Positions 9,873 through 49,300 of a stretch of DNA of 64,000 nt are shown piece after piece. A program made the position numbers and the translations under genes. The stretch covers positions 62,001 through 126,000 of the forward strand of contig NZ_AMZN01000051.1 in assembly GCF_000331535.1 (NCBI RefSeq), written 5' to 3'. The stretch's first letter is position 1; each line of letters starts with the position of its first letter. Source of the stretch: Fulvivirga imtechensis AK7. GTDB taxonomy: Bacteria; Bacteroidota; Bacteroidia; Cytophagales; Cyclobacteriaceae. The notes beneath the pieces were generated by a model. The model was not told the origin of the DNA. It ran no database searches and saw only the letters and a list, made by a program, of their open reading frames with translations.

Positions 9873-9881
9873 GTGAATTCA

Positions 9882-10931: not shown

Positions 10932-12037
10932 AAAATATTGCAGTACTAACGAGCTCCAGAGCAGATTACGGTATATATAAACCTTTATTGAAGGCTCTGA
11001 AAGAACATAAAGAATGTCAACTAAGTGTTATTGCTTTTGGTACACATCTTTCCCCTTTTCATGGGCACACAGTCAATCAAATACTAGAAGATGGGTTTTC
11101 AGTAGATTATCGGATCAATTCACTGTTAATCAATGACGATGCAAACTCCATATCTACCGCTGTAGCGCTCACAAGCCTTAAGTTTGCCGAATTCTGGCAA
11201 AATCATGCTCAAGACTTTGATGCGGTTTTTTGCCTTGGCGACCGTTATGAAATGTTTGCGGCTGTTACCTCCGGTATACCTTATGGAATTAAGTTTGCTC
11301 ATCTGCATGGTGGAGAAACCACGCTTGGCGCTATAGACAATATATACCGGCATGCAATTAGTCTCGCATCACATTGGCATTTCACAGCTCACGACTCTTT
11401 TAGTGAAAGAATTGCTCAAATTATAGGTTCAAGAGACCGTGTAATTACCGTTGGGGCGTTAGGATTGGATAACCTGGAAAACTTATGCCTGCTATCCAAA
11501 GAAGAGTTTTTTAAAAAATGGAATATAGATATAAACATTCCAAGTATACTAATAACCGTTCATCCGGAAACGGTTGATATAAAGCACATGGAGCAGCGTA
11601 ATGACGCGTTGATTAACGCGTTGAACCAGCTTGTTAAGAAATATCAATTGATAATTACCATGCCCAATGCTGATACTTTTGGCACTGAATTAAGACGTAG
11701 AATTCTGACTTTTAGGGAGAAGTATGTAAATGAATTAAAATTGGTGGAAAATTTCGGCACACAAAGTTATTTTACCTGTATGAAATACTCTTCATTTCTT
11801 TTGGGAAATACTTCAAGTGGTATTATTGAAGCGGCCTCATTTCAAAAATATGTCATAAACTTGGGAGATCGACAGAAGGGAAGAATGTCAGGAGACAATG
11901 TGGTTCATGTGCCTTTTGGCGAAAAACTAATTTTAAATGCTGTTGGTCAGATCGAGAAGAAGCAGCAGTATGAGGGTGGTAATATCTATTACCAGGGAGG
12001 GGCAGTAAAGAAAATATTAAAAGAAATTTTTAGATAG
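10928..12037 (+). CDS. legG: NDP-N-acetylhexosamine 2-epimerase (hydrolysing), LegG/NeuC-like
   Basis: A 369-residue GT-B-fold epimerase of the NeuC branch. TSSRADYGIYKPLL is the characteristic N-terminus. CLGDRYEMFAAV, HLHGGETTLGAIDN, ITVHPET and LGNTSSGIIEA are the UDP/GDP-binding and catalytic blocks. Hydrolysing members release the nucleotide while epimerising C2, giving the free ManNAc-type sugar used by the synthase encoded just upstream (4-base overlap). The family match is clear; assignment to the legionaminate route rather than sialic acid rests on the LegB- and PtmE-like neighbours. Confidence 0.88.
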   Translation: MKNIAVLTSSRADYGIYKPLLKALKEHKECQLSVIAFGTHLSPFHGHTVNQILEDGFSVDYRINSLLINDDANSISTAVALTSLKFAEFWQNHAQDFDAVFCLGDRYEMFAAVTSGIPYGIKFAHLHGGETTLGAIDNIYRHAISLASHWHFTAHDSFSERIAQIIGSRDRVITVGALGLDNLENLCLLSKEEFFKKWNIDINIPSILITVHPETVDIKHMEQRNDALINALNQLVKKYQLIITMPNADTFGTELRRRILTFREKYVNELKLVENFGTQSYFTCMKYSSFLLGNTSSGIIEAASFQKYVINLGDRQKGRMSGDNVVHVPFGEKLILNAVGQIEKKQQYEGGNIYYQGGAVKKILKEIFR

Positions 12038-13084
12038 GTGCAGAATATAGAAAAACATTTAATATTGACCGGTTCCCCAATCAAGAGTGCACTGGCCAAG
12101 CTAAATCAATTGGCTGCTGATGCAATACTTTTTGTAGTAGACCAGGACCAACGGTTAATTGGTTCTCTTACTGATGGAGATATTCGCAGGGGCTTTTTGA
12201 AGAACCTCAATTTAGATAATGTGGTAAATGATTTCCTGCAGCCCAACCCTCGATTTGTTCGTAAGGGAGACGACAATATCCTTAAAGTAATAGAGTTCAG
12301 AAATAAGCAGTTTAGAATTCTTCCGGTTTTAGATGGTAATAACCGTGTTATTAATATTATTAATTTTCGGTTTTTTAAATCCTATTTGCCGGTGGATGCG
12401 ATCATAATGGCGGGAGGAAGAGGTGTTCGGCTGCGGCCTTTGACGGATAAAATACCAAAGCCATTACTGCATGTAGGTGATAAACCCATTATTGAACATA
12501 ATCTTGACAGGCTTATTAGCTATGGCATAGATGATGTATGGATATCGATAAGGTATCGTGGAGACCAGATTAAGGAGTATTTGGGTGACGGAGATAGTAA
12601 GAATATTAAAATAGAATACATTTGGGAAGATGAGCCATTAGGTACGATAGGAGCAGTGAGTAAAATATCTAATTTGCAACACGACAATATTCTTGTCACC
12701 AACTCAGATTTACTTACAGACCTGGATTATGAAGATTTTTTCCTGGATTTTTTAAACAGTAAGGCGGATCTGAGCGTGGTTACTATACCATATGCCGTAA
12801 AAGTACCATATGCGGTTCTGGAAACCAGTAATAACCATGTACTTTCATTTAAAGAAAAGCCTACATATACCTACTATTCCAATGGTGGTATTTACCTGTT
12901 GAAGAGGCATGTGTTGAAGTACATACCTAAAGAATCTTTCTATAACGCCACGGACCTTATGGAGCACTTGATCAATAATGGAATGAAGGTCAATTCATAT
13001 CCTCTTAGGGGGTACTGGTTGGATATCGGCAACCCGGAGGATTTTAAAAAGGCCCAGGAAGATATAAACCACCTAAGCTTGTAA
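12038..13084 (+). CDS. ptmE: CBS-domain sugar-1-phosphate guanylyltransferase, PtmE-like
   Basis: A 348-residue fusion. Residues about 10-115 are a CBS pair (GSLTDGDIRRGFLK in the first repeat). Residues 120-348 are a sugar nucleotidyltransferase with AGGRGVRLRPLTDKIPKP, the NTP-binding loop and catalytic Lys, then VTNSDLLTD (metal-binding Asp) and GYWLDIGNPEDFKKA. This architecture matches Campylobacter PtmE, which makes GDP-glucosamine for CMP-legionaminate synthesis. It uses a GTG start, 0 bases after the previous stop, with no ATG nearby. The nucleotide specificity is inferred by homology. Confidence 0.82.
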   Translation: MQNIEKHLILTGSPIKSALAKLNQLAADAILFVVDQDQRLIGSLTDGDIRRGFLKNLNLDNVVNDFLQPNPRFVRKGDDNILKVIEFRNKQFRILPVLDGNNRVINIINFRFFKSYLPVDAIIMAGGRGVRLRPLTDKIPKPLLHVGDKPIIEHNLDRLISYGIDDVWISIRYRGDQIKEYLGDGDSKNIKIEYIWEDEPLGTIGAVSKISNLQHDNILVTNSDLLTDLDYEDFFLDFLNSKADLSVVTIPYAVKVPYAVLETSNNHVLSFKEKPTYTYYSNGGIYLLKRHVLKYIPKESFYNATDLMEHLINNGMKVNSYPLRGYWLDIGNPEDFKKAQEDINHLSL

Positions 13085-13815
13085 TGGAAATTTTAGTAAC
13101 TATATGTGCAAGGGGAGGGTCTAAAGGCATCCCTGACAAAAATATCAAAGTTATAAACGGGCTGCCTCTAATCGCCTATTCTATATTGCTGGCCCGTCAA
13201 ATTAAGGATAAATACGGTGCAGATATTGCTCTATCTACAGATAGTGCCAGGTATAAAGATGTTGCAGCTGAATATGGCCTTAAAGCCGAATATACCCGGC
13301 CGCAGGATTTGGCTACTGATGGCGCAGGGAAAATTGGAGTAATCCGCGATGTCAAGGAGTTTGAGGAAAGAAAGAGGCAGAAGAAGTATGATTATGTGAT
13401 CGACCTGGAAGTTACTTCCCCGCTTCGTAACCTCGATGACATAGAGGTTGCCTTGGAAAAATTGATTGCTAATGAAGAGGCGCATATAATCGTGGGTGTG
13501 AGCCCGGTAACCAAAAACCCTTACTACAACATGTGGGAGAAAAAAGAGGATGGCTTTTGGGGACTTTCAAAACCCACTTCAGACAATATCCTCGCCCGTC
13601 AAAAATCTCCGAAGGTATATGCTTCCAATGGGATGCTATATATCATGAGACATACTTTTTTTGATTATGGTTACAAATCCATTGTCACAGATAAAACTGA
13701 AGTATATGTCTCCCCCCACATCTGTTTTGATCTGGATGAAATGATTGATTTTTATTTCATGGATTTTGTGTTGTCCAATAACAAACTGGATTTTAAATTG
13801 GGATTTAATGAGTGA
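13084..13815 (+). CDS. legF: CMP-nonulosonate synthetase (LegF/PtmB/NeuA-like)
   Basis: A 243-residue CMP-sugar synthetase. CARGGSKGIPDKNIK is the CTP-binding signature, ALSTDS and EVTSPLRNLDDIE are the ribose/sugar-binding motifs, and FDLDEMIDFYF is the terminal acidic motif. It activates the ulosonic acid made by the synthase at 9882-10931 as its CMP derivative. It overlaps the PtmE-like gene by one base (ATG inside TAATG) and the PtmA-like gene by 8 bases. It is much closer to canonical NeuA/LegF than the second cytidylyltransferase at 6327-7031, so two different CMP-sugars may be made in this locus. Confidence 0.88.
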   Translation: MEILVTICARGGSKGIPDKNIKVINGLPLIAYSILLARQIKDKYGADIALSTDSARYKDVAAEYGLKAEYTRPQDLATDGAGKIGVIRDVKEFEERKRQKKYDYVIDLEVTSPLRNLDDIEVALEKLIANEEAHIIVGVSPVTKNPYYNMWEKKEDGFWGLSKPTSDNILARQKSPKVYASNGMLYIMRHTFFDYGYKSIVTDKTEVYVSPHICFDLDEMIDFYFMDFVLSNNKLDFKLGFNE

Positions 13816-24630: not shown

Positions 24631-24715
24631 AGCGGTCAACCCGGGGTGTATGTCCAGGCTGAGAAGATGGCGAGACATAACCTAAGTACCTTGGGTTGCT
24701 CCCTGCTTGCGCGCT
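24631..24715 (+). other. Structured non-coding element with a possible three-way junction
   Basis: This GC-rich patch between two acetyltransferase genes can fold as three stems. P1 pairs CGGGG (24642-24646) with CCCTG (24701-24705). P2 pairs TATGTC (24649-24654) with GACATA (24674-24679). P3 pairs ACCTAAG (24680-24686) with CTTGGGT (24690-24696) around a TAC loop. AGCG/CGCT at the outer ends may add a closing stem. It matches no riboswitch that I recognise. It may be a leader RNA, an attenuator, or a remnant of a mobile or structured RNA. No coding potential is evident. Confidence 0.4.
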
Positions 24716-24757
24716 AAATGTACTACGATGCGTAAGTATGTAACCATTGAAAATCAA

Positions 24758-25381
24758 ATGTACATGAAAAAAATAGCCATATATGGAGCAGGGGGCCTTG
24801 GAAAGGAGGTAAAAACCATAATAGATGCTATCAATCAAGCCAAGCCGGTGTATGACTTTCTTGGATATTTTGATGATAACGTCAGGGGAGATCATGTGAT
24901 AGGCGGGTTAGCTGATCTTAATAGATGGGAGGAAAACATTCATCTTGTGATTGGTATAGGTGCACCGGAAGTCAAAGAACAAATCATATCATCAATAACC
25001 AATTCTTTTATCCGATACGAAACGCTCATCCATCCGGGTGCAGAAATCGGAAATGGTGACGATGTGCAGATAGGTGTGGGAACCATTGTCACTGCAGGAT
25101 GTATCTTAACAACAGATATTGAAATAGGTAAACATGTTCTTTTAAACTTGAACACCACTATTGGCCATGATGTGGTGATTGGGGATTTTTGTTCTATAAT
25201 GCCAGGAGTAAACCTGGCAGGGGCAGTTAAAATTAAAAAATCCGTATTGATTGGATCCGGGGCAAATATTATTAACGCTGTTTGTATAGGAGAGCGTGCT
25301 GTGGTAGGAGCCGGAGCCGTGGTTTTAAAAAATGTAAAATCGCACAGCACAGTGGTCGGAGTACCTGCAAGGGAGTTGTAA
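24758..25381 (+). CDS. Second NeuD/PglD-family acetyltransferase
   Basis: A 207-residue protein with the same two-part layout as the gene at 24011-24619: KKIAIYGAGGLGKEVKTII (Rossmann part), then a beta-helix with TLIHPGAEIGNGDDVQIGVG, NLNTTIGHDVVIGDFCSIMP (catalytic His) and ending in GVPAREL. The start is placed at ATG 24758 or 24764, directly before the conserved strand; an upstream ATG at 24707 would place the N-terminus within the structured element. It is followed after 1 base by xrtF. It may N-acetylate a 4-amino sugar in the bacillosamine or legionaminate route (LegH-like step). Confidence 0.8.
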   Translation: MYMKKIAIYGAGGLGKEVKTIIDAINQAKPVYDFLGYFDDNVRGDHVIGGLADLNRWEENIHLVIGIGAPEVKEQIISSITNSFIRYETLIHPGAEIGNGDDVQIGVGTIVTAGCILTTDIEIGKHVLLNLNTTIGHDVVIGDFCSIMPGVNLAGAVKIKKSVLIGSGANIINAVCIGERAVVGAGAVVLKNVKSHSTVVGVPAREL

Positions 25382-25382
25382 T

Positions 25383-25919
25383 ATGTCGTTAATAAGAGAA
25401 TTTAAACCTACCATACTGTTTTTGGTTAAATTTTTGGGGTTTTACCTCATACTAAACCTGTTATACGGCTTTTTCATTGATGCTTACTCTCCCCTGCCTG
25501 ACCCCGTTACACGGTGGGTGTCGGTGCAGTCTACTTCAATTCTTAACTTGTTTCAGTACCGGATTGAATATGCCGACCATCAATATCAACCATCAATTAA
25601 CCTAATCCTGGATGGGCAGGATGTGATTTTGAGTATCTTTGAAGGGTGTAATGGACTGAATGTAATTATCATATTTGTTTCTTTCCTCTTGTCATTCGGA
25701 AAGCTATCACCAAGGCTGATATGGTTTATTCCATTGGGCTTAATTATAATACACATTTTTAACGTTCTCAGGATCTTATTGTTATTTTTGATTTCTGTTC
25801 ATTGGCCAGATGCCATGTATTTTGCCCATAAGTATTTATTCACTGCCATACTCTATGTTGTAATATTTGTTCTGTGGTATTTTTGGCTCAATAAGCTCTA
25901 TGTAATCAAAAATACATGA
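25383..25919 (+). CDS. xrtF: Exosortase family protein XrtF
   Basis: A 178-residue integral membrane protein with about five spans. The exosortase catalytic triad is visible: Cys89 in FEGCNGLN, Arg130 in FNVLRILLL and His149 in YFAHKYLF. The N-terminal segment (KPTILFLVKFLGFYLILNL) and overall length match the XrtF branch found in Bacteroidetes. Exosortases are thought to cut C-terminal PEP-CTERM-like anchors and pass the protein to a surface glycan or lipid. It is coupled by a 4-base overlap to the XrtF-associated gene. A candidate substrate is encoded at 32617-32793. Confidence 0.85.
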   Translation: MSLIREFKPTILFLVKFLGFYLILNLLYGFFIDAYSPLPDPVTRWVSVQSTSILNLFQYRIEYADHQYQPSINLILDGQDVILSIFEGCNGLNVIIIFVSFLLSFGKLSPRLIWFIPLGLIIIHIFNVLRILLLFLISVHWPDAMYFAHKYLFTAILYVVIFVLWYFWLNKLYVIKNT

Positions 25920-26350
25920 TAGAAAAACAGTGGGATATGAGACGTTTTGCTTTGATTTCACTCAGCCTTATGGGGTTGATAATGGTGTACCTTCTGCAAC
26001 GTGAAATACAACATTTTTTTAGCACCTTTGGGTTGTCCGGCTATCAATTATTTATTGCGGGAAGGTCCTTCCGTTTCATTGTTAATGATCTTTTAATGAT
26101 ACTGCTCATCTATGGCCTCTATATGAAAAGGAAGTATGTTATTTTTGCTTTTTATTTGCAGTTAATAGGAATAATTTTGATTTTGATTCCATATCTTGTA
26201 ATTAAATATAATACCCCTTATAATGGGCCCTTGGTGTCTTTCTTGCACAGACTGGTTATCAACCCGCTTCTAATGGTCTTGTTGATACCAGCTTTTTTTT
26301 ATCAGGAGAGGTACTCTGAGATTGAAACTACAAAAAATGACACAAAATGA
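25916..26350 (+). CDS. Exosortase F system-associated membrane protein
   Basis: A 144-residue membrane protein with four hydrophobic segments. Features of the family that accompanies XrtF include a short N-terminal tail with a Met-Arg-Arg-Phe, the REIQHFFSTFGLSGYQLFIA loop between the first two segments, FRFIVNDLLMILLIYGLY and the terminal hydrophobic stretch LVINPLLMVLLIPAFFYQ. Its biochemical role is not known. Its gene overlaps xrtF and the following aminotransferase gene by 4 bases each, implying co-translation. Confidence 0.78.
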   Translation: MIEKQWDMRRFALISLSLMGLIMVYLLQREIQHFFSTFGLSGYQLFIAGRSFRFIVNDLLMILLIYGLYMKRKYVIFAFYLQLIGIILILIPYLVIKYNTPYNGPLVSFLHRLVINPLLMVLLIPAFFYQERYSEIETTKNDTK

Positions 26351-27483
26351 GTGAAAGAATTTACCTGTCGTCTCCTCATATGGGGGGAATGGAGTTGGAA
26401 TATATTAACGAGGCTTTTGACACCAATTGGATATCTCCGGTGGGGCCGAATATTGATCACTTTGAGCAGGATATTTCCAAGTACATGTCGGGGATCCATG
26501 TCGCGGCCCTAAGCTCCGGTACAGCAGCTATTCATCTCGCATTGATCATCTTAGGGGTTGAGCGGGGAGATGAGGTTATTTGTAGTTCCTTTACTTTTGC
26601 AGGAAGCTGTAACCCTATAGCTTACATGGGCGCGGTTCCGGTTTTTGTCGATTCGGAAAGAGAAACCTGGAATATGGATCCTGAGTTGCTAAAAGAGGCA
26701 ATAGAAGACAGAATTAAGAAAGGAAAAAAGCCGAAAGCCATAATTGTGGTTCATTTGTATGGCATGCCGGCAAAACTGGATGAGATCATCCAGATAGGGA
26801 AGAAGTACGAGATACCCTTGATAGAAGATGCAGCAGAAGCTTTTGGTGCGGAATATAAAGGCCGTAAAGCAGGAACTTTTGGAGATATAAGTGTGCTTTC
26901 ATTTAATGGAAACAAAATCATTACCACATCTGGGGGAGGAGCTTTTTTGTCCGCCAATAATACATATGTTGAAAAGGCTAAGTTTCTTTCAACACAGGCC
27001 CGGGACCATGCTCCTCATTACGAACATAGTCAAATAGGATATAACTACAGGATGAGTAACATCAGCGCGGGAATAGGGCGTGGGCAGATGGAAGTTCTCG
27101 ATGAAAGAGTACGACAGAGGAGAAGCATTTTTAAGTTTTATGAGGAGAAATTCTCCGGTTTATCAGGTATTGAATTTTTGAGAGAACCTGCTGGACATTT
27201 TTCCAATAGATGGCTGACCACAGCTCTGGTAGATAAGCATCTGCTAGGCGTGGACAGAGAAGATATTAGAATAGGGTTAGAAAAATACAACATAGAAACT
27301 CGTCCCCTTTGGAAACCTATGCATATCCAGCCTGTTTTTAAGGAAGCACCCGCTTATACAAATGGAACCTCGGAAGAGCTGTTCAACAGGGGTATTTGCT
27401 TGCCTTCTGGTTCAAATTTGACAACAAGCGATAAGGAACGAATAATGAATAAGTTAACAGGCTTATTTAAGGTTACTATTTAA
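26347..27483 (+). CDS. pglE: DegT/DnrJ/EryC1/StrS sugar aminotransferase, PglE-like
   Basis: A 378-residue PLP enzyme of fold type I. LSSGTAAIHLAL holds the cofactor-phosphate loop, LIEDAAEAFGAEY the Asp that pairs with the pyridine nitrogen, and SFNGNKIITTSGGGAF the Schiff-base Lys190; NYRMSNISAGIGRGQM and the ETRPLWKPMH end are family-typical. It would transfer an amino group to C4 of a UDP-4-keto-6-deoxy-HexNAc, feeding the PglD step. The partner PglF-like dehydratase is at 32816-34723. It could also serve the LegC step, for which no other aminotransferase is in the window. Confidence 0.86.
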   Translation: MSERIYLSSPHMGGMELEYINEAFDTNWISPVGPNIDHFEQDISKYMSGIHVAALSSGTAAIHLALIILGVERGDEVICSSFTFAGSCNPIAYMGAVPVFVDSERETWNMDPELLKEAIEDRIKKGKKPKAIIVVHLYGMPAKLDEIIQIGKKYEIPLIEDAAEAFGAEYKGRKAGTFGDISVLSFNGNKIITTSGGGAFLSANNTYVEKAKFLSTQARDHAPHYEHSQIGYNYRMSNISAGIGRGQMEVLDERVRQRRSIFKFYEEKFSGLSGIEFLREPAGHFSNRWLTTALVDKHLLGVDREDIRIGLEKYNIETRPLWKPMHIQPVFKEAPAYTNGTSEELFNRGICLPSGSNLTTSDKERIMNKLTGLFKVTI

Positions 27484-27546
27484 TCAGGCAAGGTATTCAT
27501 TTTATAAACTTAAAATTCGTAATTTGTACTTTAAATAACGAACTAC

Positions 27547-30500
27547 ATGTTGTATACCAAAATAAACAGAGTTGTATCTTGCAGTATAAGAGATGTAAAT
27601 ATTGTTTTATTTCTTGTTGCTATTTCTTGTTTGCCCCTATTTTCGTTTGGGCAATCTGCCGGTGATTTTAGATCTTTTGGCTCTGGTGATTGGGATAATG
27701 TAAATACCTGGGAACGCTTCGATGGCGGTAGTTGGGTGAATCCAGCTCCCTCTACCCCGACAAATGCCGATGGGGCCATTACTGTTCAGGCTTTTCATAC
27801 TATTACAGTACCGGTATCTACAACTATCACAATTGATCAAACCACTGTTGAGGGAGATGGTATTCTAAATGTAAATGGAACTTTGATAATTGCAGATGGT
27901 ACAGGAGATGATCTGGTGATTGCTGAGGCAGATTTTATAACTACATTTTCAGATGGAAAACTGAATGTTAATGATAATGCTATTGTAGAAAATCAAGGAC
28001 AGATAGCAAATGGTTCGCTAGGATTTGAAGTATTTAGTGGAGGTACCTATCAACATAATCTAAATGGAGGAACCATTCCTTCCGGAACATGGAATACAGG
28101 TTCTACATGTTTGGTGACAGGTATAGCTGGTTCAGTGCCTTCTGGATTAAACCAATCTTTTCATCACTTCACATGGGATTGTACTGCTCAATCTACAACT
28201 ATTTTTCTGAATGCAGCTCTTACTGATGTTAATGGTAATTTGACCATAAATGATACGAATAATAATTTATTGATATTAGTTACAAGCACAACTGCAACTA
28301 TAAGTGTCGATGGCGATCTTAACGTAAATAATGATGCAGGTTTATATTTAACCACACAAGGTACGGCTACAGTTAATGTTGGTGGGAATGTGAGCATTTC
28401 CTCTTCGAAGGCCTCTTTTGCTTTGATTTTTACTGCCACAGGGAATGCCAATCTAAATGTTTCGGGAAACTTTTCAAAAACCGGAACCGGGGTTGTCAAT
28501 TTGGCCGCTAGTTCAGGCTCAGGAACATTAACAGTTAATGGAGACTTTACATTTACTGGCGGTACTATAAGAAAGTCGGGAAGTACAGGAAGCGGAACGG
28601 TTAACTTTGATGGAGTGACTGCATTTACAGGTGGAGGTACTTTTGCAGATGCTGTTAATTTCAATGTGACGGCTGGTTCACAACTTGACCTTGACACTTT
28701 TGCACTTACTGGAAGTGGGACCTTTAATTTAGGAGCGGGATCAATCTTGCAATTAGGATCTACCCATGCTTCAGGAGCTTTACAAACGGGAACCTCTGGT
28801 GGTAATATCCAGCAAGGAGGATTAAGAACTTTTACTGCAGGGTCCACAATTATTTATGATGGAGCAAGTGCACAGGCTTTGGGAGACGGCTTTCCTACAG
28901 ATGTGAATCTTGAAATAGATAATGCATCAGGTGTTTCCCTAAGTGGGGAAGTAACAATTTCAACAGGAAGAACCTTAACTCTCTCATCAGGCAACCTGTT
29001 AATCGGAGGAAATACTTTGTCGATAAATGGCAATATTTCCGTGGCAGCAGGAGCTCTGGAAGGGGGAGCATCTTCAAATCTATCTATAGGTGGAACAGGG
29101 AATTTCGGAACTTTATCATTTGCAACCACTACAACACTGAACGATTTTACTTTGAATAGATCCTCATCGGGGAATGTCACACTCGGGTCGAATCTAACTA
29201 TTTTAGGTACTTTTACCCAGACGGATGGTGACATCACTCTAAACGGAAATACGTTCAATATTAATGGACCATTTTCCAGAACCGTTGGAACTCTGGTGTG
29301 CGATGCCTCTGCAACGCTAATTGTAGATGGAACAGGTGCGTTACCTGCGTCAGTTGGAATGTCCGGAGCTTTGACCACGTTAACTCTAGATCGGGCTGGT
29401 AGCACTTTTTCAACAGGTGCTACATTGACCATCACGAATTTAAACTTGACAGCGGGTACTTTTGATAATACTAGTACGATCACCATGGCTGCAAATGGAG
29501 TCATAACGCGGACGGCCGATGGCAGTATGAATAATGCTCCGGTAGCTGTCACGAGCTATGATGTGGTTTACAACAATAGTACAACAATATCTTCAGGGCC
29601 CGAACTCCCCACCGGGACAACGGCCCTCGATGATCTTACCAAGCAGGGCTCAGGCCAACTGGACTTAAGCAATAATTTAACTGTAAATGGCATTCTAACT
29701 CTTTCGAATGGAGTTTTTAACGCGGGAACCAACACTATCGATTTTAAGGGAAATATTGTTAGCAATGCAGCTTCTACTTTAACTTCAAGTTCGGTAACAT
29801 TTAGTGGAACAACAACAGTTACAGGAAATACTACTATGACCTTTAATGGGATAACTGTATCAGGTACGCTTACGCCTCAGGTTGATTTTAATATCAATGG
29901 GAATTTGGTGAACAACGGCACTTTAAATGCTGGTACGGCTACAACCACTTTTGGAGGTACTACTACGGTAAGCGGCAGTAGTACCAGTTCATTTAACGAT
30001 GTCGTAATTAGTGGATCTCTAACAGCCCATTCCGGGAGTATGAACGTAGCTGGGGATTTTACCAACAATGGTACGTTTAGCAACAATAGCGGTGAAATAG
30101 TTTTTAACGGAACAACATCTATTTTAGGCTCCAATACTACTGATTTCCATAGTGTTATAATTGCCGGTACGCTAACTGGCCCTGCAACTTTCAACATAGA
30201 AGGTAATTTCACCAATAATGGAGGTACATTTAATCACAATAATGGAACTGCAGTGTTCGGGGGTTCCATTGCACAAACAATTGGAGGTACCTCTGCCAGT
30301 ACTTTTTACAGCATGACAGTAGGTAATTCTAACGGAGTATCTGTTACAGGGACAGCTCGCCTTGAGGGGGTTTTTACTCTTAGCGGATCTGGCGTATTCG
30401 ATGCAGATGGTGGTGGTTCGGGTGTTTTTGTGGTCAGATCTCGGGGTGTCACCAACGATGATGCCCGGATAGCTGATCTCACTGGTGTAGAAGGTAATTT

Positions 30501-32616
30501 TACAGGAAATATTACTGTCGAAAGGTATCTGGACGGACCGGACGACTGGCGATATATTTCCACTCCAATAACTGACGGCAATTTGGGAATGTGGCGCGAT
30601 GACTTTTCCATAACTGGTAATTTTTCAGACGCAACTACTTCTGCTGAGGACCCTAATGTTACTCACAGTACTGCAGCTTCTGTCTATGTGTATGATGCGG
30701 CATCAGACGCCTGGACCGCGGTCGATGGAGGCGGAGGCGCTACAAGTACAGTTTCCCTTACCAATGGAACAGGATATGCCGCCTATATCTACAATCCTTC
30801 GGATTTTACGTTTTCAGTGAGGGGAACAATGGGTAAAGGTGCCGTGAATATTCCTTTGACAGCAGACGCTTCAGGCAGGTATAATCTGGTGGGAAATCCG
30901 TATCCCTCCGCTATTGATTGGGATAATATTATTCCTCAGACGGGTTTGGCCAGCACTGTTTCTATTAGAACTGCAAACGGTGTATTTGCCGCTTATAATG
31001 GTTCTATAACTACCAACCCGCCTTTTGTAGGTTGGACGGGAGAAATCGCTATGGGCCAGTCTTTCTGGATACAATCTACATCTGCCACAACGCTTAGCCT
31101 GACAGAGGCAGACAAGACCGGTAATCAGAATCATTTCCTTAGAACTTCAAGTCCTGAGAATTTTCTTCGTATAACTCTGAGCAACAGTACGGAAACTCAG
31201 GGAGACGAATCTGTCGTTTGGTTTGTAGAAGATGCTACCGATACCACTGACTTTGCTTACGATGCTGTTAAAAGAAAGAATGGCAATCAGGTTTCGGCTG
31301 GAAAATATGACTACTTAAACCTGTCAACTTTTAATGATAGTTCAATTCATGACTACACTATTAACACAGTTTCTTTTATTGATTGTGCCAAAACAGTTAA
31401 ATTAAAGGTTTCTGATGTAGCTCAAGGACAATACAAACTACTATTTACCGAACTGAACAGTTTTAATCTTCCCTATGATGTTGTTCTAAATGATCATTTC
31501 CTTGGCACATCAATTGCTTTAAGTGATAACAGTGAATATTTGTTTAATGTTACGGCAGATGCGGCAAGCTACGGAGCAGAAAGGTTTGAGGTCGTTTTCA
31601 CAATAAGCCCGGTAGATACTACAATTCCGGTGTCAGCATCTGTTTCTGAGATATGTGAGGGAGAGGGTGCCACTATCAACATAGACAATTCAGATATTTA
31701 TACCTCTTATAAAATTTATAAAGATGGTATTGCTGTTTCGGAAACATTCACAGGAAATGGAAGTACGCTTAACATAGGGTTAAATACTGAGGTACTCATC
31801 GTAGGCGAAAATACATTTACCATTGAGGCCAATAAGATGGATTGTGGAATTTCTTACCTGGAGGAGAATGCTACAATTTCGGTGAAAGATTATTACCAGA
31901 TAACTTCCACTGAGGGAGGTATGAACTGTGGGGAAGGACAAGTGGTGCTGAAAGCTTTGGGCTTGGCTGATACTGATGGTTTGTATAACTGGTATGCAAC
32001 GTCAGACGCTGCTACCCCGCTGGAAAGCAACACTACTGGTAGCTTTACTACTCCACCTATTGGCAATACAACCTCTTATTTTGTTTCGGCTGTAAATTCG
32101 TTGGGTTGTGAGAGCGATAAGGTGGAGGTAATTGCAGAGATAGTAAACATAGAGAAACCTACCATTTCTGTTAATGGTAATGTGTTTACTTCAAGTTATA
32201 CGGAAGGCAACCAATGGTATAAGGATGGTGAGGTTATTGAAGGTGCCATTAGCTCAACGCTGGAGGTAACTGCTGAAGGAACATATTCTGTCACTGTAGC
32301 ACAAAATGGATGCTCTGCATCTTCCGACAATGTAGTATTTAATGTTACGGGCCTGGAAGATGAAATAGCCAACCGTGGTGTGAAAGTTTACCCCAATCCT
32401 TTTAGTAGTGAACTTCATTTCATTATCCCTGAGTGGGTGGAAGTTCACAAAATTGAGCTATTGGATGTAGAAGGACGAGTATTTATGAATATCGACCGAA
32501 ACAATTTTAGCATTGGGGAAAATATATTACATTTACCGGAAGTACCAGAAGGGTTGTATATAATTAATATTCAATCTTCAGATGGTGTTATACCTCTAAG
32601 AATAGTTAAGAAATAG
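27547..32616 (+). CDS. Large secreted repeat protein with T9SS type A sorting domain
   Basis: A 1689-residue protein with a signal peptide (hydrophobic core about residues 18-34, cleavage after SFGQ). Residues about 40-950 are rich in Gly, Asn, Thr and Ser with short NGxLxxxG-type turns, as in beta-helix/filamentous-haemagglutinin-like proteins. Four related 50-residue units occur at 29796-30395. Further domains follow at about 950-1200 and 1350-1600 (Ig-like, with YFVSAVNSLGCESD). The last ~80 residues (VKVYPNPFSSELHF to the terminal IVKK) are a type A T9SS C-terminal domain that directs outer-membrane secretion. It sits inside the polysaccharide locus and may be a matrix or adhesion protein. 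Confidence 0.85.
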   Translation: MLYTKINRVVSCSIRDVNIVLFLVAISCLPLFSFGQSAGDFRSFGSGDWDNVNTWERFDGGSWVNPAPSTPTNADGAITVQAFHTITVPVSTTITIDQTTVEGDGILNVNGTLIIADGTGDDLVIAEADFITTFSDGKLNVNDNAIVENQGQIANGSLGFEVFSGGTYQHNLNGGTIPSGTWNTGSTCLVTGIAGSVPSGLNQSFHHFTWDCTAQSTTIFLNAALTDVNGNLTINDTNNNLLILVTSTTATISVDGDLNVNNDAGLYLTTQGTATVNVGGNVSISSSKASFALIFTATGNANLNVSGNFSKTGTGVVNLAASSGSGTLTVNGDFTFTGGTIRKSGSTGSGTVNFDGVTAFTGGGTFADAVNFNVTAGSQLDLDTFALTGSGTFNLGAGSILQLGSTHASGALQTGTSGGNIQQGGLRTFTAGSTIIYDGASAQALGDGFPTDVNLEIDNASGVSLSGEVTISTGRTLTLSSGNLLIGGNTLSINGNISVAAGALEGGASSNLSIGGTGNFGTLSFATTTTLNDFTLNRSSSGNVTLGSNLTILGTFTQTDGDITLNGNTFNINGPFSRTVGTLVCDASATLIVDGTGALPASVGMSGALTTLTLDRAGSTFSTGATLTITNLNLTAGTFDNTSTITMAANGVITRTADGSMNNAPVAVTSYDVVYNNSTTISSGPELPTGTTALDDLTKQGSGQLDLSNNLTVNGILTLSNGVFNAGTNTIDFKGNIVSNAASTLTSSSVTFSGTTTVTGNTTMTFNGITVSGTLTPQVDFNINGNLVNNGTLNAGTATTTFGGTTTVSGSSTSSFNDVVISGSLTAHSGSMNVAGDFTNNGTFSNNSGEIVFNGTTSILGSNTTDFHSVIIAGTLTGPATFNIEGNFTNNGGTFNHNNGTAVFGGSIAQTIGGTSASTFYSMTVGNSNGVSVTGTARLEGVFTLSGSGVFDADGGGSGVFVVRSRGVTNDDARIADLTGVEGNFTGNITVERYLDGPDDWRYISTPITDGNLGMWRDDFSITGNFSDATTSAEDPNVTHSTAASVYVYDAASDAWTAVDGGGGATSTVSLTNGTGYAAYIYNPSDFTFSVRGTMGKGAVNIPLTADASGRYNLVGNPYPSAIDWDNIIPQTGLASTVSIRTANGVFAAYNGSITTNPPFVGWTGEIAMGQSFWIQSTSATTLSLTEADKTGNQNHFLRTSSPENFLRITLSNSTETQGDESVVWFVEDATDTTDFAYDAVKRKNGNQVSAGKYDYLNLSTFNDSSIHDYTINTVSFIDCAKTVKLKVSDVAQGQYKLLFTELNSFNLPYDVVLNDHFLGTSIALSDNSEYLFNVTADAASYGAERFEVVFTISPVDTTIPVSASVSEICEGEGATINIDNSDIYTSYKIYKDGIAVSETFTGNGSTLNIGLNTEVLIVGENTFTIEANKMDCGISYLEENATISVKDYYQITSTEGGMNCGEGQVVLKALGLADTDGLYNWYATSDAATPLESNTTGSFTTPPIGNTTSYFVSAVNSLGCESDKVEVIAEIVNIEKPTISVNGNVFTSSYTEGNQWYKDGEVIEGAISSTLEVTAEGTYSVTVAQNGCSASSDNVVFNVTGLEDEIANRGVKVYPNPFSSELHFIIPEWVEVHKIELLDVEGRVFMNIDRNNFSIGENILHLPEVPEGLYIINIQSSDGVIPLRIVKK
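29796..30395 (+). repeat. About four tandem ~50-codon units in the T9SS type A protein
   Basis: Units begin near 29796, 29944, 30094 and 30250. Each reads roughly F-x-GTTT-(V/I)-x-G-x-x-T-x-x-F-x-x-(V/I)-x-(V/I)-x-G-x-L-T-x(6)-N-(I/V)-x-G-(N/D)-F-x-NNGTF. The fourth is more degenerate. They are in frame and about 150 bases long, which fits one turn or set of turns of a beta-helical stalk. Confidence 0.6.
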
Positions 32617-32793
32617 ATGAAAAGCATTTTTGTGTCTATACTCGTTTTATTTTTTACATTTTCACTGCGAGCGCAACCAGGCGACCCTGGTGGAGGAGGA
32701 AAACCTGTGCCTATTGGTGGAGTAGAGTTACTACTTCTTGCGGGCGGAGCGTTGGGGATTAGAAAGATAGTAAAACAACATCGCAAGCGCTGA
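32617..32793 (+). CDS. 58-residue protein with CTERM-like sorting anchor; candidate XrtF substrate
   Basis: A small gene beginning with ATG immediately after the TAG of the T9SS protein. Its parts are: a signal peptide (hydrophobic, ending SLRAQ near residue 20), a short mature stretch rich in Gly and Pro (PGDPGGGGKP, residues 21-30), a PIGG motif (32-35), a hydrophobic segment VELLLLAGGALGI and a basic tail RKIVKQHRKR. Motif, membrane segment and Arg/Lys tail in that order are the three parts of exosortase (PEP-CTERM-like) anchors. It resembles the small PIDGG-type CTERM proteins of flavobacteria. Since xrtF is 7 kb upstream on the same strand, this is the obvious local substrate candidate. 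Function after processing is unknown. Confidence 0.75.
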   Translation: MKSIFVSILVLFFTFSLRAQPGDPGGGGKPVPIGGVELLLLAGGALGIRKIVKQHRKR

Positions 32794-32815: not shown

Positions 32816-34723
32816 TTGATAACGCATTTTCTACTAAAACTTCGAATACTTCCGAGGTGGATAATTATCCTCATTGATATTGCTGTTGTAGGTTGTGCTA
32901 CCTATCTGGCTTATCTTCTCAGGTTTAATTTTGAAGTTAAGGAGCTGGAAAACTTCAACTACCACCTCGGTATGGGTGTTAATATGCTAGCAAGCCTGTT
33001 GGCTCTGTTAGTAACCAGGAGCTATGCGGGCATTGTTAGATATACCGGCATCCAGGACATGTTGAGAGTGTTTAATACACTGGTTATAACACATGTAACT
33101 ACTTGCGTTGTCAACCTTGTGTATCATTATAACTACAACAAAAATCTGATTCCATATTCCGTTATTCTTATTGCTTTCCTCGCCTCATTCTTACTTCTCC
33201 TTCAGTACAGACTTCTGATTAAGAATGTTTTTTCTTATTACAGGGGAAGTACTATGTCTAAAATCCGAGTATTGGTGTTTGGTGCGGGGCAACTAGGCAT
33301 GGTTACAAAACAGGTGATCGATGGTACTGATGGGTCCAAGTATCGTGTTGTTGGGTTTGTAGAGGATGATATCAGAAAGGTTGGTAAAAATATCCATGGT
33401 ACCCCCATTTATAGCGGACAGGAGTTAAACTCCCTTTTGGATTTGTTATCGGTAAAGGAATTGATCATAGCAGTAAAGGACTTGTCAGTAGACCGTAAAA
33501 ATGAAATTGTTGACATATGCCTTGAGCAGGATGTAAAGGTCCGTACTGTCCCTCAGGCAGATGATTGGGTTAAGGGGGAGTTGAGCCTTAATCAGATTAA
33601 AGAAATTAATATCGAAGATCTGCTGGGTAGAGAATCTATACAGCTCGATAATATGGCCGTCTGCGATCAACTCCAAAACAAACGTGTATGTATCACGGGA
33701 GCAGCGGGCTCAATAGGCAGTGAGTTGGTTAGACAGGTAATACAATATAGGCCTGAGCAATTAATTGTCATAGATCAGGCTGAGTCTGCACTTTATGAAA
33801 TAGAAAGAGAACTGGGAAATAATGATAACATCGAATTTCTTGTGGCAGACGTAACAAATGAAGGTCGAATAGATGATATATTCTCTCATTATAAACCAGA
33901 GATTATCTTCCACGCAGCAGCGTACAAGCACGTACCGTTGATGGAAAAGAACCCATCGGAAGCTGTGTTGTGTAACGTTATTGGGACAAGAAATTTGGCT
34001 GACTTTGCAGTTAAACATCATGTATCGAAATTTGTGATGATCTCTACCGATAAGGCGGTCAATCCAACAAATGTAATGGGATGCTCTAAGCGTATTGCAG
34101 AGATTTATGTCAGGTCGCTTAACAACCACCTGAAACAGCTAGATAGAACTACTGCTACCTCTTTTGTGACTACCAGGTTTGGCAATGTTCTGGGATCTAA
34201 CGGATCGGTTATCCCATTTTTCCAAAAACAAATTAGTCAGGGAGGACCGGTGACGGTTACTCATCCTGAAATTACCCGCTATTTTATGACCATTACTGAA
34301 GCATGTCAGCTTGTACTGGAGGCTGGAGCTATGGGAAAGGGAGGGGAGATATTTATTTTTGATATGGGTAAGTCAATTAAAATAGTTGATTTAGCAAAAA
34401 AGATGATACAGTTGTCTGGGTTGGCACTCAATAAAGATATTGAGATTGTCTATACAGGCCTAAGACAGGGAGAAAAGTTATACGAGGAATTATTGGCCAG
34501 CAAGGAAAATACTATTTCCACCCATCATAGCAAAATAATGATAGCTAAGGTGTTGGAGTACGACTACGATGAAATAAAAAAGAATACGGAAGATTTACAC
34601 CAGGCAGCTCTTGACAGAAAAGATAACTTTGAAATAGTTGCAATTATGAAAAGAATTGTACCAGAGTTCAAGAGTAACAGTTCTCCGTATCAGGTATTGG
34701 ATAATAGTTCTTCTGTGGCGTAG
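32816..34723 (+). CDS. pglF: Membrane-bound UDP-GlcNAc 4,6-dehydratase (PglF/WbpM/CapD type)
   Basis: A 635-residue protein. Four N-terminal membrane spans lie within residues 12-140, a CoA-binding-like Rossmann domain follows (VLVFGAGQLGMVTKQV), then the catalytic SDR domain from about residue 288: ITGAAGSIGSELVRQV, HAAAYKHVPLMEKNP, STDKAVNPTNVMGCSKR, and TRFGNVLGSNGSVIPFF. The STDKA...MGCSKR block carries the active-site residues of the long retaining 4,6-dehydratases that begin bacillosamine synthesis. It starts at a TTG (32816) behind TAAGGA; no nearer ATG exists before residue 53. It closes the polysaccharide locus. Confidence 0.86.
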   Translation: MITHFLLKLRILPRWIIILIDIAVVGCATYLAYLLRFNFEVKELENFNYHLGMGVNMLASLLALLVTRSYAGIVRYTGIQDMLRVFNTLVITHVTTCVVNLVYHYNYNKNLIPYSVILIAFLASFLLLLQYRLLIKNVFSYYRGSTMSKIRVLVFGAGQLGMVTKQVIDGTDGSKYRVVGFVEDDIRKVGKNIHGTPIYSGQELNSLLDLLSVKELIIAVKDLSVDRKNEIVDICLEQDVKVRTVPQADDWVKGELSLNQIKEINIEDLLGRESIQLDNMAVCDQLQNKRVCITGAAGSIGSELVRQVIQYRPEQLIVIDQAESALYEIERELGNNDNIEFLVADVTNEGRIDDIFSHYKPEIIFHAAAYKHVPLMEKNPSEAVLCNVIGTRNLADFAVKHHVSKFVMISTDKAVNPTNVMGCSKRIAEIYVRSLNNHLKQLDRTTATSFVTTRFGNVLGSNGSVIPFFQKQISQGGPVTVTHPEITRYFMTITEACQLVLEAGAMGKGGEIFIFDMGKSIKIVDLAKKMIQLSGLALNKDIEIVYTGLRQGEKLYEELLASKENTISTHHSKIMIAKVLEYDYDEIKKNTEDLHQAALDRKDNFEIVAIMKRIVPEFKSNSSPYQVLDNSSSVA

Positions 34724-34752: not shown

Positions 34753-35661
34753 TTATCTACGTCTACGTTGAATGTTACGTCTGGGCCCCTTGCCTCGGTT
34801 TTTGGAATTGACAGATAGAATATTCTCCGGGAGATAATACTCAATTTTTATATTAAATAGAAAATATCCATCGTTATTAGCCGGGTTTCCTCGTATATGT
34901 CCCTCGTCAATTCCTAAAGGTGGTAAATCTATTTCATGTCTTCTGTCAGCCATTGCCTGAACCAACGGGTCCTCAATAGACGAATGTAGTTGATAAACAG
35001 TGCTTACGTCATCCAGATAATCTGTAAATGTTAACCTATAGCCTCCTTCAAGCCCAATATTGATGAAGGGGTTTGCCTTATATTTAACCCCAATTCCAAA
35101 AGGAATAACAATGGCCAGCCTGTTATAATCCACCCCTTCAGTCCGCAGTGGCTGAAGGGCGATATAGTCACCTGCATCTGGCAGTGGATCTTCATTCCAG
35201 TCTGTCTGTGGTACCTGGCCTTTAGGATTAAAATAAAGCAGACCTATACCAATAAATCCATATGGGTTGAACTGTGGTCGTTGGTAAAATCTTGCTCCCT
35301 GGGGAAAAGCATTGACAATACCTATTAAATCAAGCTCAAAATTATCAGATCTGAAGGATAAATTCCTTCTGGTTTTTCCCGTGAGTTCAGAGTCACTGTC
35401 ATCACCCTGCAACCTGAACCAGTGAAGCTCAGCCCTACCTGCAATTCGGGAGTGAAAGAAATACTGCAAACCAATATTAAGATTAGGCTTGGCATCCATG
35501 TAATCCCCCGGATCCTTCAGATCACCAAAATAAGTAGATGTACCCGTTCCCACCGAAGCAATTACATCTCTCCCCGTTCTGAAGTTATAAAAACTTTGAG
35601 CATCAACTAGTTCTACTATTCCTGCAAGGGCAATGCTGAGTACAGCTATTATTCTCTTCAT
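34753..35661 (-). CDS. DUF6089-like outer membrane beta-barrel protein
   Basis: A 302-residue protein with a signal peptide (hydrophobic core to about residue 20, cleavage after DAQ). The mature part shows aromatic, alternating strands and the GTGTSTYFGDL start, LNIGLQYFFHSRIAGRAEL and PYGFIGIGLLYFNPKG stretches, consistent with the Bacteroidetes DUF6089 family of outer membrane barrels. The C-terminal tail is basic (RRNIQRRRR), which is unusual for a barrel end. It is convergent with pglF, with a 29-base gap. Function is unknown. Confidence 0.7.
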   Translation of the reverse strand: MKRIIAVLSIALAGIVELVDAQSFYNFRTGRDVIASVGTGTSTYFGDLKDPGDYMDAKPNLNIGLQYFFHSRIAGRAELHWFRLQGDDSDSELTGKTRRNLSFRSDNFELDLIGIVNAFPQGARFYQRPQFNPYGFIGIGLLYFNPKGQVPQTDWNEDPLPDAGDYIALQPLRTEGVDYNRLAIVIPFGIGVKYKANPFINIGLEGGYRLTFTDYLDDVSTVYQLHSSIEDPLVQAMADRRHEIDLPPLGIDEGHIRGNPANNDGYFLFNIKIEYYLPENILSVNSKNRGKGPRRNIQRRRR

Positions 35662-46211: not shown

Positions 46212-46314
46212 GGATAGTTACCAAATGGTGTGGCCAAGGTATAAATGGCAAAAGAGTCTACCCTTTCTTTTGTCTGTATGTTGGCTGTTGTTATTAACCT
46301 TAATGATTTTTTAT

Positions 46315-49300
46315 ATGAAAAGGGTGCTCAACCGTGTATGCATCATCCTGTTTGTAATATTCAGTGGTGTTGCTTTTGCTCAGACAGAGCAATGTAATAA
46401 TGGCATTGATGACGATGGTGATGGATTGATCGACTGTAATGATCCGGATTGTCAGTATGCTGCTAATATTGAAAGGGGCTGTAATTGCGCTGATGGTATT
46501 GATAATGATGGTGACGGAGGGACTGATAAGTCTGACGCAGATTGTGCCAGCTTCTACGGCCTTACTTTCATCGGTGATGGTGACAGCGACTGCTCCATTA
46601 CACCTGACCCCTCTTCTGGAACGTTTGACTTTGTAAACCCTTCCAATTCAGGACAAAATACTGTAGACACCCAGTCTAAAATTGCTGTTGGGGATGTGAA
46701 CTGCGATGGTATTCCTGACGTGGTGACCACCTCTAAATGGAATCAGACCATACGTGTGGTGGCTACTTCGGATGATCAGCCGGACGGCTCCGATAAAGGT
46801 GATATCATTCAGAGCTTTAAAACTCCGGGATCCAAGATATTTCCTAATGGAAACTTCTTTTTTGAACTTGAAGTACTTATTGCCGATATTGACGGTAGCT
46901 GCCCTGCTGAGATATTTTCCATAGTCAGCAAAAGAAAAAACGCTAATGACGAGCCCAGTGAATATTTCCTGGTCGGCTTCCGTGCCAATGCAAGCCCCTC
47001 CAATGCAAGCCTTGTTCCGCTTTTTGATGCCGTTTCATTAGGGCCGGACAGACCCGGTCAAATGACCATTTCCGACCTGGACTGCGATGGCAATGCAGAG
47101 ATTATTTTGAAGGACCATGTGTATGATGCCGCTACAGGGACACTGCTGGCTGATGGGAATATTGGAGACTGGAATACAGAAGTGACTTCCGCTCCGGTAG
47201 CTATCGATATTTTTGAAGGGGGCAACCTGGAGATAGTAATGGGTAATCAGATACTATCATATCCCGACATGAGTGTGATTATTGATATGAACACTTTAGG
47301 AGGTGATCAGTGGTTTCCCAAAGAGATATTTGATCCTAATGAGTATGGATTCGACAATTACAGTAGTGTCAGCGTTGCTGATATGAATGGAGACGGACAT
47401 CTCGATGTGGTGCTATCAGGTGCAGAGGGAAGCAAAAACGGTCCCACAGCCATTTTCTTTTGGGATGTAACCAATGGCACTGTCAGTAGCTTCCTGCCTG
47501 ATGATCCGGTATATGCTAATGGCTGGCCATGGGGAACCAGCCGTCCGAACCTAGGTGATATAGATGGTGATGGCCAATTAGAAATTACCTTCATTGCCGG
47601 GAATCAATTATTTGCACTTGAAGTAGACCCCAATACCGGTGAGTTATCTGAGAAGTGGAGAAGAACCATTAATGATTCTCGCTCCGGTATAGTGGCTACA
47701 ACTGTTTTTGATTTTGACAATGATGGTAGTCCGGAAATAGTTTATCGTGACTCACAACAACTGGTGGTGATCGATGGAGAAACCGGACAGAATGTGCTTT
47801 GGAGTTCATCCTGTCAATCACACACTATGACGGAGGGACCCATCATCGCTGATGTTGACGGTGATGGTGCGACAGATCTGTGCACTACCTGTAATACAAA
47901 CAATTCATTTGATATTACTGCACCCATCCAACAGCAGGCCCTGGGTGAATTGAGGTGTTTCTTTTCACAAAATAATACATGGCTACCCACTCGCCAGGTT
48001 TGGAACCAATCCGGGTATTTCGTAACCAATATTGCTGATGACCTGTCGGTACCATGCCCTCAGTTTGACATGGGTACAGTCTTTTCAGATAGTCCATGCG
48101 CTAATGGCCTTCCCGGTCCGCAGCGACCATTCAATACCTTTATGAACCAGGTGCCTTCTATTGGCCCTGATGGGTGTCCGTTCTATCCTTCTCCGGATGT
48201 TTCGTTTGTGGGACATGCTCCGGGAGAATTGGACCCTCTGGATCCTGATTATTTTCCCGCTGTAGAAGTTATCCCCCCAACTTGTGGCGATTTGGGCGTG
48301 GAAGTATTGTTTAATATTGTTAATAGCGGATCCCTGACCATTTCTACTCAAATTCCAGTAAGCTTTTGGGAAGGTAACCCAACTGTAGCGGTTGACCCTG
48401 ACACCGGTAACCCGGCTACGTTATTGCATGCCGATGCGTTGAATGTTTTGGGCCTTCAGGTGGGTGATACAATGACCACCGCTGGTGTTACCTTTGATTA
48501 TAGTGGCCAGCCGACCAGACTCTACATCGTACTGAACGATGATGGCACCGAATTTCCCGTTGATACAACCGCTAGTTCTACCGGTTTTGCTGAATGTAAG
48601 CTCGATAACAACATCTATGCTGTTGATATTATCCCGGAGCCATTTACGGTTGAAATTGAGAATATTTCGGACAACTTTAAATGCGATGACGCTGCGCCTG
48701 ACACTGGCGAGCTTCGTGGTGTGGTAAAAAGAAATGGTGTGGAAGTTGCCGACTACAGCCCTTACGGTTTTCAGTGGTACTACGGATCGGATACAACCAA
48801 TGCTGTCCCCGCGCCTGAGGGAACCATCGACCGGCTCATGGATCTGCCGGAAGGTACTTATACACTCGTGGTTACCAACTTGGCTAAAGGCTGTTCCAGC
48901 TTGCCTGTTGTAGATACAGTATTGAGGCAAGGGGTAGATCCTGATGTTACCATTTTGATCAACTCTCACCAAACCCACTGCTCACCTCCGAATGGAGAAC
49001 TTGAAGTAACCATAGTTGGCGGACTGGCCGGATTTTCTTTCCAGTGGTATGACAATAATCTAAACTCCATTGGTGTTACGGGACCCATTGCCAGCGATCT
49101 TACCGAAGGAGAATGGATCGTTGATGTGATCAAGGATGGTTGTACCGAAAGGGTTTCCCAGACTATCAACGGGCCTACCGAGCCTGATGTGACTGCCAGT
49201 GTGGTAAGACATATTACAGATTGCAGCGCCTTAACCAACGGTAAGGTTACTGCTCAGCCATTTATCAATGCAGTTTTACAGGATACAACTGATTATACCT

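Follow-up and report, generated by a model that had tools for sequence, protein, structure and literature searches.

The window, namely the whole stretch of 64,000 nucleotides from Fulvivirga imtechensis AK7 that was analysed, carries an exosortase gene (xrtF), the gene of its usual partner protein, several sugar genes, a gene for a giant protein, and a tiny gene encoding 58 amino acids (Table 1). The ATG of the tiny gene abuts the stop codon of the giant gene with zero gap. This giant gene, whose product bears a T9SS type A tail, was absent from the earlier note on this DNA. Just downstream, a convergent PorG-like gene (34753-35661, minus strand) scored 106.2 bits against T9SS_PorG (cut-off 130), and its homologue adjoins the locus in many relatives. 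NeuB- and NeuC-type genes above their cut-offs and a PseF-like gene below its cut-off were found at 9873-13815; these genes suggest that the glycan may contain a sialic-acid-like nonulosonic acid. The window also holds an ORF of 3866 aa at 46225-57825 (+).

Table 1 Features of the xrtF locus, with positions in the window.
Feature	Position	Strand	Evidence
NeuD/PglB-type sugar acetyltransferase, upstream of xrtF	24707..25381	+	TIGR03570 181.5 bits, cut-off 160.8
xrtF, exosortase XrtF, 178 aa	25383..25919	+	TIGR04128 135.7 bits, cut-off 90
Exosortase F system-associated membrane protein	25916..26350	+	TIGR04127 42.9 bits, cut-off 35
LegC-like sugar aminotransferase	26347..27483	+	TIGR04181 402.9 bits, below cut-off 420
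Giant of 1689 aa, T9SS type A tail, next upstream of the tiny gene	27547..32616	+
Module M of the giant, about residues 980-1360	30484..31626	+	No named family
T9SS type A sorting tail of the giant, residues 1614-1689	32386..32613	+	TIGR04183 match
Tiny gene, 58-aa candidate XrtF substrate	32617..32793	+	Homologues, alignment, pN/pS
Predicted signal peptide of the tiny protein, residues 1-19	32617..32673	+	Read from the sequence
Predicted mature peptide, residues 20-33	32674..32715	+	Sequence; the cut itself inferred
PIGG motif of the tiny protein, residues 32-35	32710..32721	+	Alignments
Hydrophobic segment (36-48) and basic tail (49-58) of the tiny protein	32722..32790	+	Sequence, alignment
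Nucleotide-sugar 4,6-dehydratase-like gene, directly downstream of the tiny gene	32816..34723	+	PseB 199.1 bits, below cut-off 407.75

The earlier note had claimed that xrtF carries Cys89, Arg130, and His149 and is followed by its usual partner gene. This was confirmed: both proteins exceeded the cut-offs of their models, and the three residues, which we take to be catalytic, do not vary across 78 aligned relatives. Against the XrtX model, the window exosortase scored 117.1 bits, below the cut-off of 170. Its nearest named relative belonged to Fulvivirga marina (60% identity). In a quick tree of 94 rows made by one method, the 28 XrtX-type rows came together with a support of 99, and the window XrtF grouped with the XrtF rows (SH-aLRT 93, not starred). 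The AlphaFold2 model of XrtF had a pLDDT of 93.8. No PDB entry matched XrtF, whether by structure (E ≤ 0.001) or by sequence (E ≤ 1). The partner gene overlaps xrtF by 4 bases, and its homologue was present in 73 of 80 XrtF loci. The partner protein was confidently modelled as a helical membrane protein (pLDDT 90.7), with no match to PDB structures at E ≤ 0.001. Residues R53, N57-D58, H111-R112, and N116-P117 were nearly invariant in the partner alignment and possibly form an active site. According to the available text of a 2024 paper, deletion of xrtF or of the partner gene in Flavobacterium johnsoniae lowered colonisation and biofilm formation (PMC10936215). The same text treats the XrtF substrates as an open question left to future work, in agreement with the earlier note, which had called them poorly known.

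The 58-aa ORF of the tiny gene had been described as encoding a signal peptide, a Gly/Pro stretch, PIGG, a hydrophobic segment, and a basic tail; its boundaries proved to be exact, and reading the sequence gave the same layout. The predicted A19/Q20 junction is followed by a Pro/Gly stretch at residues 20-31, and the alignment together with the sequence revealed everything that a tripartite CTERM protein should have: a signal peptide, the motif, a hydrophobic stretch, and basic residues at the C-terminal end. Hydropathy and motif filters missed most tiny genes and were replaced by profile searches. When 80 loci obtained by scanning named genome contigs with the XrtF alignment were searched (E ≤ 1e-3), a tiny homologue was detected in 45, three of which (L223, L254, and L265) came from genomes used in profile training. 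The homologous proteins were 58-79 aa long, and a homologue of the dehydratase-like gene lay after the tiny gene in 39 of the 45 loci. Pooled over 13 independent homologue pairs, pN/pS was 0.31 (pS 0.62, pN 0.19; uncorrected for multiple hits). With 45 homologues and this ratio, the ORF is, as far as sequence can show, not a chance reading frame; the tiny gene is real and is under purifying selection. Among the named XrtF loci having at least 8.5 kb of downstream sequence, 42 of 55 contained the tiny gene. Nine of the remaining 13 loci were followed up (all except L253, L261, L264, and L267), and all nine genomes did contain the tiny gene, which lay beyond the 10-kb flanks of xrtF in L191, L193, L199, L203, and L210, just past the sequence end or the threshold in L215, L221, and L222, and about 28 kb from xrtF in L263 (genome G006). 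As a side observation, the locus of L195, titled an uncultured Chitinophaga MAG, was nearly the same as that of the Flammeovirgaceae MAG L192; their tiny proteins were 90% identical, pointing to misbinning or transfer.

The Gln at the start of the predicted mature peptide, Q20 in the window, was invariant in 46 aligned tiny proteins (the 45 homologues and the window protein). From Q20 to I33 the peptide has 14 residues, and the median was 15 in the 40 of 46 proteins with an A/QP junction; the earlier note had given about 12 residues. A close known system is PID-CTERM (NF046080), found here in genomes with XrtX (NF046081), which likewise comprises tiny secreted proteins with a short motif, a hydrophobic stretch, and a basic tail. 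The window protein scored 15.3 bits against NF046080, below the cut-off of 26, and in a search of the window genome this model retrieved it with no better than E 0.14. None of the 46 tiny proteins reached the cut-off of NF046080, which gave no match among them at E ≤ 1e-5 (best 2.8e-5) and 26 matches at E ≤ 1. The window protein reached no NCBIfam cut-off and matched no Pfam family at E ≤ 1. The Asp of the PID-CTERM signal, present as P-x-D-G in 30 of 30 tiny proteins from XrtX-type genomes of the order sample, was absent from all 46, which have T, S, G, or Q instead.

The tail of the giant scored 33.5 bits against TIGR04183 (cut-off 23), which assigns it to T9SS type A, and 25.1 against Pfam PF18962, just below the cut-off of 27. 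An ORF of at least 900 aa lay directly upstream of the tiny gene in 43 of the 45 XrtF loci, separated from it by -13 to +22 bases, with a 4-base overlap in 16 loci. The two others, L188 and L209, fell outside the 43 by the 900-aa limit; their upstream ORFs have 767 and 733 aa and gaps of 22 and 8 bases, respectively. All ten tails tested with the curated model passed the type A cut-off. Furthermore, a T9SS-tailed ORF preceded the tiny gene directly in 8 of 8 further tiny loci of the XrtF clade, five of which lay outside the 10-kb flanks of xrtF; of the others, L283 and L303 were within or just beyond XrtF loci, and L288, from the genome of L201, was on a separate short contig. PID-CTERM genes are likewise often placed right behind such ORFs: the order sample contributed 19 such cases among 30 PID-type tiny genes and the phylum sample 22 among 26, together 41 of 56. 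As controls, genes of at least 100 aa followed a T9SS-tailed ORF in 2 of 447 cases in three neutral sets and in 41 of 1158 cases within the XrtF loci themselves. The tail profile used for these counts was trained on the 43 giants, and L133, L134, L141, and L144 were dropped as repeat genomes or XrtF loci. Accordingly, the T9SS giant is a steadier neighbour of the tiny gene than xrtF. In 19 regions the T9SS-tailed ORFs were 500-2349 aa long, and 20 of 21 tiny genes followed one, the tail match being lost in G043; this proportion is no measure of frequency, because the regions were preselected for that arrangement.

The giants (L188-L267 and L365-L383) have in common a stretch of about 370 residues with a conserved GNPYPS-like motif, here termed module M. 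It gave no match at E ≤ 1 to Pfam, to NCBIfam, or in a sequence search of the PDB, and only weak matches in PHROGs. Of the T9SS-tailed ORFs with a tiny gene behind them, 99 of 105 contained module M, against 5 of 12 of those without one; outside the training giants, the figures were 58 of 62 and 5 of 12. ORFs with fewer than 350 bases downstream and no tiny gene, as well as duplicates identical over their final 60 residues, were left out of this count, in which module M genes lacking a tiny gene are under-sampled because most loci were fetched via the tiny gene or xrtF. In L370 and L380 we observed tandem cassettes, in which each of two T9SS giants has its own tiny gene behind it, the C-terminal 45 residues of the tiny proteins being the same, as if the giant and the tiny gene duplicate together.

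The co-occurrence of tiny genes with the exosortase, on which the earlier note had based its refuting condition, was examined in 148 genomes of the order of the window. An exosortase of the XrtF or XrtX type and a tiny gene were both found in 51 genomes, the exosortase only in 5, a tiny gene only in 2, and neither in 90 (Fisher test, 2.8e-31, uncorrected for phylogeny). In other words, 51 of the 53 tiny-positive genomes had the exosortase, and the tiny gene occurred in 2 of the 92 genomes without it. Since 21 of the 53 tiny-positive genomes were seeds of the tiny profile, the curated PID_CTERM model was used alone as a seed-free check; 46 of the 47 genomes above its cut-off had the exosortase. 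One genome, G088, showed a clear PID-CTERM match (C44:2888-2962) and no match of the XrtF or XrtX type, which may reflect an assembly gap or another enzyme. Within the family of the window, G105 combines XrtX with PIDGG, and G019, G064, G078, and G144 combine XrtF with PI[T/S]G. Motif and enzyme do not correspond one to one, because G006, with XrtF at 94.7 bits, carries PIDGG, and the tiny protein of L288, which is not linked to xrtF, reads PIAG. PIDGG-type tiny proteins also accompany the sister enzyme XrtX, so that the signal in general does not single out XrtF. The link to XrtF drawn in the earlier note was supported. Judged from the sequences, only the Asp-less form (PI/PL/PF-[T/S/G/Q]-G) marks the XrtF clade of the window. 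In the Flavobacteriia-type xrtF neighbourhoods (L114-L131), no tiny gene was found beside xrtF except in the XrtX-like locus L130.

We also analysed 196 genomes from the order of genome G311, presumably Flavobacteriales. XrtF was detected in 82 of them at E 1e-3, with 77 above the cut-off. Related tiny genes in short frames (E ≤ 0.01) were found in 51 of the 82 XrtF-positive and 3 of the 114 XrtF-negative genomes, or in 40 and 2, respectively, at E ≤ 1e-3; these counts were not corrected for phylogeny. The profile had been seeded from XrtF-positive genomes only, and without the 17 seed genomes among the 51, the counts were 34 of 65 and 3 of 114. The counts leave out every match with E > 0.01, and also G499 and G475, whose open frames have 189 and 344 aa, respectively. 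At E ≤ 0.01, the search left 31 of the 82 XrtF-positive genomes without a tiny match; family f25 accounts for 20 of these. The candidate proteins mostly read ...PPPGLPID-x, and their genes do not lie by xrtF. Instead, a riboflavin-synthase-like gene, which we take to be ribE, adjoined the tiny gene in 9 of 9 loci (L307-L309, L313-L315, L319, L321, and L322). When the ribE site was checked in 28 genomes, the tiny gene was there in 4 of 20 XrtF-positive and 0 of 8 XrtF-negative genomes. A T9SS-tailed ORF directly preceded the tiny gene in only 1 of 24 cases. The link between the tiny gene and XrtF is thus likely in this order too, though weaker than in the clade of the window.

Taken together, these findings suggest, with a probability of roughly three in four, that the 58-aa protein is a dedicated substrate of XrtF that is made together with the giant T9SS surface protein; from the computed pairing, conservation, and gene order, we infer cleavage, attachment, and function. 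The tiny protein would be exported by Sec, and signal peptidase I would cut after Ala19 to expose Gln20. The hydrophobic segment and the basic tail would keep the protein in the inner membrane, where XrtF, with Cys89 as the nucleophile, would cut near PIGG and pass a Pro/Gly/Asp-rich peptide of about 15 residues to a lipid or sugar acceptor. Archaeosortase A transfers its targets in a like manner. Gln20 would be converted to pyroglutamate by the Bacteroidetes Q-rule as given in the available text of two papers (PMC5837995, PMC10653852), a rule that the invariant Gln at the mature start fits. Finally, the peptide may serve the giant encoded upstream, for example in the role of an anchor or a ligand, or by helping it to assemble on the cell surface. 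The absence of the tiny gene from the vicinity of xrtF in at least 5 of the 55 loci counts against this reading, as do the exceptions G006 and L288, the 31 XrtF-positive genomes of the G311 order without a tiny match, and the count of 4 in 20 at the ribE site.

PEP-CTERM/exosortase A systems combine a tripartite C-terminal signal, an exosortase, and a polysaccharide cluster. The window shares these three features, and unlike those systems it has one tiny recognisable target per genome and a T9SS gene as the neighbour. The exosortase F system of F. johnsoniae is covered by the same enzyme and partner models (TIGR04128 and TIGR04127) as the window; in the G311 order, in which F. johnsoniae itself was not identified, the candidate tiny genes lie by the riboflavin-synthase-like gene and, unlike that of the window, away from xrtF. 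The giant resembles T9SS cargo sorted by PorU in bearing a type A tail. The target of PorU, however, is the T9SS cargo (PMC7468200). XrtF belongs to another, inner-membrane family. In the open PMC literature, neither tiny XrtF substrates nor a connection between them and T9SS genes came up in any paper that we found. Since dozens of related bacteria show the same arrangement of giant, tiny gene, and XrtF, this arrangement offers concrete, testable candidates for XrtF substrates, namely the PI[T/S/G]G tiny gene in the xrtF locus for the clade of the window and the related tiny gene elsewhere in the genome for the G311 order. A stronger result, and a more surprising one, is that putative exosortase mini-substrates are encoded directly behind large T9SS proteins with a common unnamed module. 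Tentatively, and at less than even odds, this may represent a two-gene cassette of Bacteroidota, in which a T9SS giant with module M is encoded with a mini-protein that XrtF or XrtX would turn into a pyroglutamate-capped, C-terminally fixed peptide serving as the tether or ligand of the giant. If this were true, two separately studied surface-sorting routes, that of the inner-membrane exosortase and that of the outer-membrane type IX system, would meet on one surface structure.

As a special case of the substrate reading, XrtF might cut the tiny protein and link the product to the glycan that the locus makes. The presence in the window of sugar genes of the NeuB, NeuC, and NeuD types would agree with this, as would the sugar aminotransferase and dehydratase genes that flank the pair in many loci. 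However, all nine tiny loci inspected in the G311 order lie by the riboflavin-synthase-like gene, and no sugar gene was recognised by eye within 3 kb; we regard the special case as unlikely. The earlier note had proposed that the peptide is fixed to a glycan made by the surrounding genes; its substrate-like layout and the link to XrtF stood, and this attachment was left without support.

A second explanation, which we consider rather improbable, is that XrtF does not cut the tiny protein, which would instead be a small chaperone in the membrane or help the giant to assemble; the tiny gene and xrtF would then share a locus only through their common place in the surface-polysaccharide region. 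This explanation would account for the T9SS-tailed ORF being the steadier neighbour, including in the 8 further loci, but not for the scarcity of tiny genes (just 2 of 92) in genomes without such an exosortase, nor for the change of the motif with the type of enzyme.

The dedicated-substrate reading was also weighed against the idea that XrtF has other, larger substrates and that the tiny protein is a signal-bearing regulator or decoy. The many long proteins sorted by exosortase A systems would favour this idea. A six-frame search of the window genome with the tiny profile (E ≤ 0.01), which a diverged signal would escape, nevertheless gave a single match, the tiny gene itself, and exactly one tiny match was likewise found in each of five other genomes of the order with an XrtF-type enzyme and TIGR04127, so that larger substrates seem quite improbable to us. 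Finally, the shortness of the tiny ORF and its failure to reach any curated model might suggest a chance reading frame or remnant, but its 45 homologues in a syntenic place and the pN/pS of 0.31 leave that explanation practically no room.
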